Origin: Cyanobium sp. C1_MAG_00004
Lineage (GTDB): Bacteria; Cyanobacteriota; Cyanobacteriia; PCC-6307; Cyanobiaceae
Length of the DNA: 62,057 bases
NCBI GenBank assembly: GCA_027486935.1
Contig: JAIXOF010000032.1
Span: forward strand, 1-62,057
Direction of reading: 5' to 3'
The translations under genes were made by a program, and so were the position numbers. Below the pieces are notes generated by a model that did not search any database, was not told the origin of the DNA, and was given only the letters and a program-made list of their open reading frames with translations. Shown piece after piece: positions 29,794 through 54,262 of the stretch (positions are counted from its first letter, which is position 1; every line of letters starts with the position of its first letter).

Positions 29794-30569
29794 CCCCCCC
29801 CGGCACCGTCTACCTGGTGGGAGCCGGTCCCGGCGATCCTGACCTGCTGACGGTTAAGGCCCAGCGGCTGCTGGGCCAGTGCGATGCCCTGGTCTACGAC
29901 TCGCTGGTGCCGCGCCAGGTGCTCGAGCTGGTGCCCGAGGCGGCCGAGAGGCATTTCGTGGGTAAACGCCGCGGCCACCATTCGGTGCCCCAGCCCAGCA
30001 CCAATGCGGTGCTGGTCGAGCTGGCCGGCCGTTGCCGCTGTGTGGTGCGGCTCAAAGGCGGAGATCCCTTTCTGTTCGGCCGCGGTGGCGAAGAGGCCGC
30101 CCATCTGGCCCGCCATGGGGTGCCGGTTGAGGTGGTCCCCGGGGTCACCGCCGGCATCGCCGCACCCGCCTATGTGGGGATTCCGGTGACCCATCGCCGC
30201 GCCGGCAGTTCGGTGACCTTTGTCACCGGCCACGAGGAGATCGACAAGGGGCGACCCGGGGTCGACTGGCGCGGCCTGGCCCGCTGCTCGGACGGGCTGG
30301 TGATCTACATGGGCCTGCACAACCTGGCCCACATCTGCGCCGAGCTGATCGCCGGCGGCCTCGACGGCACCACCCCGGCCGCGGTGGTGCAACAGGGCAC
30401 CGTGCAGGGCCAGCGCCAGCTGGTCGCGCCGCTGGTCCAGCTGGCCGAACAGGCGGCGGTGGCGGGTTTTGCCTCGCCGTCGATCGTGGTGATCGGCGAG
30501 GTGGTCAACCAGCGGGTCGAGGCCTGTGCGCCCGAGCCGGCCGCGGTGGAGATGCCGATTCCGTTCTGA
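29790..30569 (+). CDS. cobA: Uroporphyrinogen-III C-methyltransferase
   Basis: 259 residues. It methylates uroporphyrinogen III at C2 and C7 to precorrin-2, the entry to siroheme and cobalamin. Motifs: VYLVGAGPGDPDLLTVKA, LVYDSLVP, VRLKGGDPFLFGRGGEEA, VVPGVTAGIAAPAYVGIPVTHR, and VIYMGLHNL. It overlaps the chelatase gene by four bases, completing a nirA-chelatase-cobA operon; the intermediate precorrin-2 dehydrogenase is not in the window. Confidence 0.96.
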   Translation: MTPPGTVYLVGAGPGDPDLLTVKAQRLLGQCDALVYDSLVPRQVLELVPEAAERHFVGKRRGHHSVPQPSTNAVLVELAGRCRCVVRLKGGDPFLFGRGGEEAAHLARHGVPVEVVPGVTAGIAAPAYVGIPVTHRRAGSSVTFVTGHEEIDKGRPGVDWRGLARCSDGLVIYMGLHNLAHICAELIAGGLDGTTPAAVVQQGTVQGQRQLVAPLVQLAEQAAVAGFASPSIVVIGEVVNQRVEACAPEPAAVEMPIPF

Positions 30570-33058: not shown

Positions 33059-34026
33059 GCCGGAAAGGGGTCGAAGGGTTCGGCAGTGCTGGCCACGAAG
33101 TATCGCGTTTCGATCAACCTGTGAAGCTGATTGAGGTCGCTTTGCAGCGCATCGATGGATTCGTGCAGTCCGCCGGCGATCAGGGCGTCGATCGGGGTGT
33201 AGCTCCAGCGGGCCAGGGTCAGTCCCGCCAGGCACTCGAGCGCATCGGGGGTGCCGGGCACGGCACTGCCACGGATGATCCGCAGCGTCTCGTTGATGCG
33301 CTCGAGGCAGTAGCGCACCGACCGGGGAAAGATCGGATCGAGCAGCAGAAAGGCGGCCACCGCCTTCGGTTCGATCGCCTGCTGGCGGGACTGGCGAAAC
33401 ATCTGGTACGCCCCGGCGCTGCGCAGCAGTGAGATCCACTGCAGTTCGTCAAGCACCCCCCCCACTTCGTCGGTGGACGGCAGCAGCAGGAAGTACTTCA
33501 CATCGAGGATGCGGGTGGTCTTGTCGGCGCGCTCGAGCAATCGACCCAGGCGGCTGAACTGCCAGGACAGATCCCGGCTCAACGTGGCATCGGTGATCCC
33601 ATAGAACAACTGGCAGGCCCTGCGGATGTCGCGCAACTGCTCCTGGGGCGGCTGGTTCCAGAAGCTGTCGTCGTCCTGCAGGGTCCAGTGGAGGTCATTG
33701 AGCTGTTCCCACATCTCGGTGGTGATCACCTCGCGGATCTGGCGGGCGTTTTCGCGGGCGACCCCCACACAGTTGACGATGCTGCTCGGATTGCGGGTCT
33801 CGCGCACCAGAAACTGCACGACGTCATCCGGGTTGCCGTTGGGATAGAGCTGGTCGAACAGCTCCCGGTCGCCACTGGCATCGATCAGGGGCAACCAGGG
33901 TTCGGCGCTGCCGGGCGGGCAGTCGAGCGCCATGGCTTCGCTGACCTCGACAAAGCGGGACAGGTTCTCGGCCCGCTCCACGTACCGGTTGATCCAGTAA
34001 AGCGAGTCGGCGACGCGGCTCAGCAT
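33043..34026 (-). CDS. Alpha-E domain protein (DUF403)
   Basis: 327 residues, all helical. The characteristic start MLSRVADSLYWINRYVERAE, then NARQIREVITTEMWEQLND, SWQFSRLGRLLERADKTTRI and CLERINETLRIIRG mark the alpha-E family. Its function is not known; the family is nearly always encoded between an ATP-grasp and a transglutaminase gene. It overlaps both neighbours here by several bases, so the three proteins are made as one unit. Confidence 0.9.
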   Translation of the reverse strand: MLSRVADSLYWINRYVERAENLSRFVEVSEAMALDCPPGSAEPWLPLIDASGDRELFDQLYPNGNPDDVVQFLVRETRNPSSIVNCVGVARENARQIREVITTEMWEQLNDLHWTLQDDDSFWNQPPQEQLRDIRRACQLFYGITDATLSRDLSWQFSRLGRLLERADKTTRILDVKYFLLLPSTDEVGGVLDELQWISLLRSAGAYQMFRQSRQQAIEPKAVAAFLLLDPIFPRSVRYCLERINETLRIIRGSAVPGTPDALECLAGLTLARWSYTPIDALIAGGLHESIDALQSDLNQLHRLIETRYFVASTAEPFDPFPACALA

Positions 34027-53240: not shown

Positions 53241-53915
53241 TCAAGCAGTCTGGGCCAGGTTGAGCCGCTGCCGCAGGCGGCGGCTGAAGCCCAGGGCTAC
53301 GCCCGCCCCCAGCACCGGCAGCGGGCCCGGCACCGCTTGGCTGATCGGGTCGGTGATCGTGGTGCTGCCCGAGCCGGCCCGGATCCCCTGCACCCGCGCC
53401 GCCGAGTAGACGCCGGTCACTGGGCTGCCGGGGTTGTTGGTGGTCAGAAAGTCTTCTGGGGTCAGACCGGTGCCATTGATCGTGAAGCGGGCGGTGTCAG
53501 TGCCCTGAAAGCGGTTTTTGTTATTGGGAATCGGCAGGTTGATTGCCAGATCGAGCCCCTGGATGCCGTTGGCAAAGTTGTTCTTGGGCAATTTGTTGAA
53601 CTCCTGCTCAACACTGGTGGAGCTGCAGGTGATGTCGCTGCTGTCGCAGCTCCAGCTGAGGTTCTGAATTTCGTTCTTCAGGTTGAAACCAACCGAACGG
53701 ATGAATTCCTGGGAGTCCTGCAGATTGCCGGTCAGGTCGATCGTGACGCCGTTGCCGCCGGCCTTGGGGCCGATCACAGTGCGCAGCCACCAGGGGCTGC
53801 CAGCCGGGGGGACGGTGCCAGAGTTGATGTCAAAATCATATTGGTAGATGTTGGTGCCGATTTGGACCGGTGCGGCCAGGGCGGCGTTGGGTTGGATGGC
53901 AACAGCAGCCAGCAT
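53241..53915 (-). CDS. PEP-CTERM-type exported protein, N-terminus split by a frameshift tract
   Basis: 224 residues from the ATG at 53915. The C-terminus has AVPGPLPVLGAGVALGFSRR, the cyanobacterial PEP-CTERM variant: a PGPLP motif, one membrane helix and a basic tail, which directs exosortase-type processing to the cell surface. The middle is Asn/Thr/Gly-rich and likely beta. The start MLAAVAIQPNAALAA is only the second half of a signal peptide. Read upstream in the same frame, the sequence gives PKLPKSAQPALWAAAGLGA, the missing basic and hydrophobic part, but no start codon; one is found in another frame at 54013 (MIRQLLH). The two frames meet at a C8 tract. Confidence 0.75.
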   Translation of the reverse strand: MLAAVAIQPNAALAAPVQIGTNIYQYDFDINSGTVPPAGSPWWLRTVIGPKAGGNGVTIDLTGNLQDSQEFIRSVGFNLKNEIQNLSWSCDSSDITCSSTSVEQEFNKLPKNNFANGIQGLDLAINLPIPNNKNRFQGTDTARFTINGTGLTPEDFLTTNNPGSPVTGVYSAARVQGIRAGSGSTTITDPISQAVPGPLPVLGAGVALGFSRRLRQRLNLAQTA

Positions 53916-53985
53916 TGCGCCCAGGCCGGCTGCGGCCCAGAGGGCGGGTTGGGCCGACTTGGGCAGTTTGGGCCGGCGGTGTTCA

Positions 53986-53993
53986 GGGGGGGG
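53986..53993. repeat. G8/C8 homopolymer tract at the frame junction of the PEP-CTERM gene
   Basis: Eight G on the plus strand (eight C in the gene). One more or two fewer would join the ATG at 54013 (MIRQLLHPP) to the signal peptide and the rest of the gene. It could be a slippage tract or a sequencing error. Confidence 0.6.
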
Positions 53994-54013
53994 TGAAGCA
54001 GTTGTCGAATCAT

Positions 54014-54262
54014 GGTGTTGGGGCGATGGAATGGATGGCCTCGGGGTTGTTGATCCAGACCCTGCGCAGGTTGGAAGCGGGGTCCGCCCAGCAGGCTAGA
54101 GAGCAGAACTGACGCCGCTGATCTGTCAGCGCGGCTCCGCATCTGGGTGATTTTGTTATTAATCAGCCCTGCTGCATGCTGCTGCACTTCTTCAGCAGAA
54201 AGCCCTGAATGACGTGTTGATCGTTAGTTTTCGGCAGCTGGGATCCCGCTTTGGTTCAGTGC
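54014..54262. promoter_or_regulatory. Divergent promoter region, AT-rich
   Basis: No gene is seen in these 249 bp. A stretch around 54148-54165 (GATTTTGTTATTAATCAG) is much more AT-rich than anything nearby and could serve the exporter gene, the PEP-CTERM gene or both. CTGCTG and CAGCAG copies near 54170-54201 can form weak hairpins. Confidence 0.35.

Follow-up and report, generated by a model that had tools for sequence, protein, structure and literature searches.

The window, a 62,057-nt stretch of DNA from Cyanobium sp. C1_MAG_00004, carries on its minus strand a gene whose product is probably an exported, exosortase-sorted (PEP-CTERM-like) surface protein and whose probable start is one register off from the remaining gene. 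The frame break in the assembly most probably sits at a run of eight C residues (C8; 53986–53993). Our best reading, which we put at just short of an even chance, is an incidental slippage indel at C8 and not an evolved switch; assembly error, an evolved switch, an unusual start codon and frameshifting follow in that order. We observed the frame break, an intact orthologue, an intact and constrained gene body and an exosortase gene in the genome. The incidental indel is supported by the break without an in-frame start, by the orthologue and the body, and by C8 being the sole nearby run of at least 7, and further by the lack of a second tract break in the assembly, by broken relatives without tracts and by an unrecognisable MutL.

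The sequence-only reading had proposed that the start and the signal peptide lie in different frames that meet at C8, and that adding one base or losing two would rejoin them. Both points were confirmed when the frames were read on the minus strand across the tract (53993–53986). The frame of the ATG at 54013–54011 reads MIRQLLHPPLNTAGPNCP..., opening with MIRQLLHPP and then entering C8, whereas the frame that holds the signal peptide and the PEP-CTERM-like tail (to 53241) reads ...SPPPEHRRPKLPKSAQPALWAAAGLGAMLAAVAIQPNAALAAP... and is shifted by one. The signal-peptide coding stretch, EHRRPKLPKSAQPALWAAAGLGAMLAAVAIQPNAALAA (53871–53984, minus strand, judged by eye), lies in the frame of the tail without an in-frame start: no ATG, GTG or TTG occurs in the 60 open codons of this frame upstream of 53915, which is the first such codon after a stop. 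From that first in-frame ATG, an open frame of 224 aa (53241–53915, minus strand; orthologue L002/L103) encodes the end of the signal peptide, a beta-rich body and the tail. A start at 53915 was rejected as a complete export form; it leaves MLAAVAIQPNAALAA, which lacks a basic n-region and so would probably not function in export. Codon usage indicated coding in the signal-peptide frame from ~53980 to 53261 and nothing coding-like upstream. Because the nine codons that follow ATG 54013 carry no coding signal of their own, this ATG is a probable rather than a proven native start. C8 was the sole run of at least 7 near the gene start, and the probability of a C8/G8 run by chance within the ~96 nt from 54013 to 53918 was ~0.002, a post hoc figure. 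Lying between ATG 54013 and the signal peptide, C8 has the form expected in a phase-variable gene, namely a tract of at least 7 G/C whose change in length alters the frame. The signal peptide in frame with a start codon, which is expected of a PEP-CTERM protein, was lacking in the assembly and present in the orthologue.

This orthologue, the best relative found, is syntenic, shares 58–59% identity with the window gene and lies on a MAG contig of the same genus (G005; matches CAMDVN010000007.1), where it adjoins a similar divergent ABC transporter (by eye). Its start is uninterrupted and in frame with the signal peptide (MTRNTRSPWRPVLVAAATGVALTALTLGSTTAQAAP). Because the orthologue has this ordinary start and signal peptide, the window gene looks broken at its 5′ end. 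The sequence-only reading had suggested comparing tract length among relatives; in the only close orthologue found, the coding start is free of C tracts, which counts against switching. The body of the window gene contains no stop, and dN/dS relative to the orthologue was ~0.19, a rough value at a dS of ~2. The body thus appears to be intact and to have been under purifying selection, which, together with the shifted start, points to a constrained gene with its start in the wrong register.

Both genes share an upstream block, TCTCTAGCCT (54093–54102, minus strand), a putative promoter part. The distance from the block to the ATG is 79 nt in the window gene (54013) and 73 nt in the orthologue, and this resemblance favours ATG 54013 as the native start. 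It also bears on the quite improbable case that the gene is whole and starts at a codon other than ATG, GTG or TTG in the signal-peptide frame. CTG 53966, for example, would yield a normal-length signal peptide and lies close to the orthologue's ATG in the protein alignment, but the distance from the conserved block fits 54013 better. Starts other than ATG, GTG and TTG are very rare in bacteria, which also counts against CTG 53966. We consider it still less likely, indeed very improbable, that slippage on the C run, either by the ribosome (−1) or in the transcript, yields some full-length protein. The ATG frame does read CAC CCC CCC CTG, an all-C heptamer of the X XXY YYZ type on which a −1 slip would give the right frame, but RNA structure downstream of the tract was not notable (z −1.3; 23 of 200 shuffles were as good) and frameshifting is neither present nor needed in the orthologue.

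In the incidental-indel reading, ATG 54013 would most likely be the native start of the surface-protein gene, and an insertion or deletion in C8, a few codons downstream, would shift it out of the signal-peptide frame. The indel would most likely have arisen by replication slippage as an incidental mutation, and it could revert by slippage. With start and signal peptide in different frames, the sequenced genome would make the protein without a working signal peptide or not make it, and export would presumably be lost.

Mismatch repair was relevant to slippage. MutS was present in the window's genome. MutL was not recognisable at the family cut-off in any of the 25 family members (the window's genome and 24 sampled relatives) and was present in all 15 sampled genomes from other families of the class. 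In a published survey, several Prochlorococcus marinus strains lacked mutL (PMC5101192); its absence across the window's family may be wider than these published cases. Because MutL was unrecognisable and mismatch repair may therefore be weak, tracts may slip more, and a C8 switch is possible.

The same break could have been produced in assembly or consensus, with a true tract of nine C (or seven) and a whole gene, an explanation that we hold to be unlikely but the strongest of the competitors. The assembly is a draft of 239 contigs, the break coincides exactly with the region's longest homopolymer, and the gene body is intact. Against this, 45 of the 58 distinct tracts of at least 8 C/G surveyed were contained in gene-like frames, and we saw no gene broken at any other tract. 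Frame changes suspected at L051, L074, window position 29794 and L069 proved to be gene junctions or overlapping gene ends. Because the assembly showed no second tract with a clear frame break, errors at such tracts appear to be uncommon; one assembly error among ~60 tracts is quite possible.

The survey of tracts also bears on evolved phase variation, in which production of the surface protein is turned on or off by changes in C8 length and the assembly represents the off state. We regard this as improbable, more so than assembly error. In its favour, C8 is in the classic place, directly behind the start of a surface-protein gene; at least 8 G/C is long enough in Campylobacter (PMC6321876); and MutL was unrecognisable throughout the sampled family. 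On the other hand, the orthologue lacks the tract, and no such tract occurs near the starts of the four paralogues with VPGPLP tails in the same genome, all of which have ordinary ATG starts. Related PEP-CTERM genes likewise showed no enrichment of tracts at their starts (6/69 versus 5/106 flanking genes; Fisher p = 0.35). Equally long tracts occur in frame in core genes, and in the window the C8 runs at 29794–29801 and 33456–33463 are in frame. The whole genome contained 112 overlapping C/G 8-mers, C8/G8 runs occurred about once per 50 kb, and the in-frame tracts included the first codons of cobA (window position 29794) and miaA homologues as well as purA and radA homologues, the names being assigned by eye from N-termini. 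Runs were depleted rather than enriched, since the window holds 3 C8/G8 runs versus 13 expected from dinucleotide shuffles, fewer than composition predicts. A genome-wide set of phase-variable genes was rejected because most tracts of at least 8 were in frame in ordinary genes. The proposal of a phase-variable PEP-CTERM protein therefore held in part: the signal peptide, the tail, the exosortase and the break at C8 were all found, whereas switching was not supported, given the paralogue starts without a tract, the many housekeeping genes that hold tracts of this length in frame, and the orthologue. On these data, switching is no better an explanation than an incidental indel or an assembly error.

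Homologues elsewhere were broken by nonsense mutations (L114, L176) or a frameshift (L130) with no tract at the break, indicating that decay without switching happens in this gene family. A protein search of genome contigs yielded no conspecific, and a variable-gap pattern search of viral contigs yielded no match.

Other tracts were also recorded. In other picocyanobacteria, runs of C8–C9 or G9 lie 10–20 nt upstream of PEP-CTERM-like starts (L112:1360-1368, L117:1440-1447, L140:1453-1461); they were not commoner than at flanking genes. That PEP-CTERM genes in general carry a 5′ tract had at first looked likely (L112, L117, L140, L147, L162, L177) but was rejected because flanking genes showed a similar rate. 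A G14 run (L048:1503-1516; G000:C4:14502-14515) lies ~40 nt upstream of the probable ATG of a histidine-kinase-like gene. Apart from runs at contig ends it was the longest C/G run found, and it makes a stronger candidate than the C8 locus for promoter-type phase variation. Runs of C17 and more lie <80 bases from contig ends (L102:47-63 on G000:C49; G000:C111:56-76), as if the assembly had stopped near very long C/G runs.

That the gene encodes an exported PEP-CTERM-like protein was supported by the signal peptide, the tail and the exosortase. The sorting-like tail VPGPLPVLGAGVALGFSRRLRQRLNLAQTA (53244–53333, minus strand) comprises a motif, a hydrophobic stretch and a basic cluster, arranged by eye as VPGPLP, helix and RRLRQR, and the paralogues are alike. 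TIGR04155 scored 14–17 bits against the tail (cut-off 21.6) and PF07589 did not match the window protein, so the PEP-CTERM assignment rests on the layout and on the company of the gene in the genome. The same genome encodes an exosortase (PF09721, 81.8 bits; TIGR04178 above cut-off) that is nearest to cyanoexosortase A, yet under that model's cut-off, and whose neighbours are glycosyltransferase-like and Wzc-like genes (by eye). Contigs C75 and C109 encode at least four more proteins whose C-termini carry VPGPLP followed by a hydrophobic stretch and a basic cluster, and the genome thus has the exosortase and several PEP-CTERM proteins expected of a sorting system. One contig carries three PEP-CTERM-like genes, two of them adjoining each other (L096; G000:C109:7500-18500). 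The protein body had no Pfam match and its AlphaFold model was poor (mean pLDDT 59.5), with weak structural matches to CBM3-type beta-sandwich modules (best E 1e-3, TM <0.5).

As it stands, the locus is one broken or misassembled accessory gene. If switching were true, C8 would act as a contingency locus for a surface protein of picocyanobacteria, cells whose surfaces are exposed to phages and grazers, and the lack of a recognisable MutL across the family would offer a cause. Our literature search found no report of phase variation by homopolymers in cyanobacteria. The intact C8 tracts in core genes and the pattern of mutL absence are useful by-products of the analysis.

The window gene can be compared with three known situations. 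With PEP-CTERM/exosortase sorting (PMC1569441; cyanoexosortase B of Nostoc punctiforme, PMC12188702) it shares the signal peptide, a diverse body and a C-terminal motif, helix and basic cluster, as well as the presence of several such proteins and an exosortase in one genome. It differs in having VPGPLP instead of PEP, a sub-cut-off TIGR04155 score, no PF07589 match and a start out of frame. With translational phase variation in Campylobacter, where poly-G/C tracts are counted from at least 7 G/C and lengths 9 and 10 predominate (PMC6321876), it shares a C8 tract early in a surface-protein gene and a frame that a one-base change would restore. Unlike in Campylobacter, with its peak at 9–10, the tract is not conserved, the genome has no set of such genes, and the case is known from the sequence of one assembly, in which no variation was seen. 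Ordinary decay of accessory genes likewise leaves a single frame break in an otherwise intact gene, and other members of this family are broken elsewhere. The window gene differs from such decay in that its break coincides with a C8 run, and it should therefore revert more readily than a nonsense mutation.
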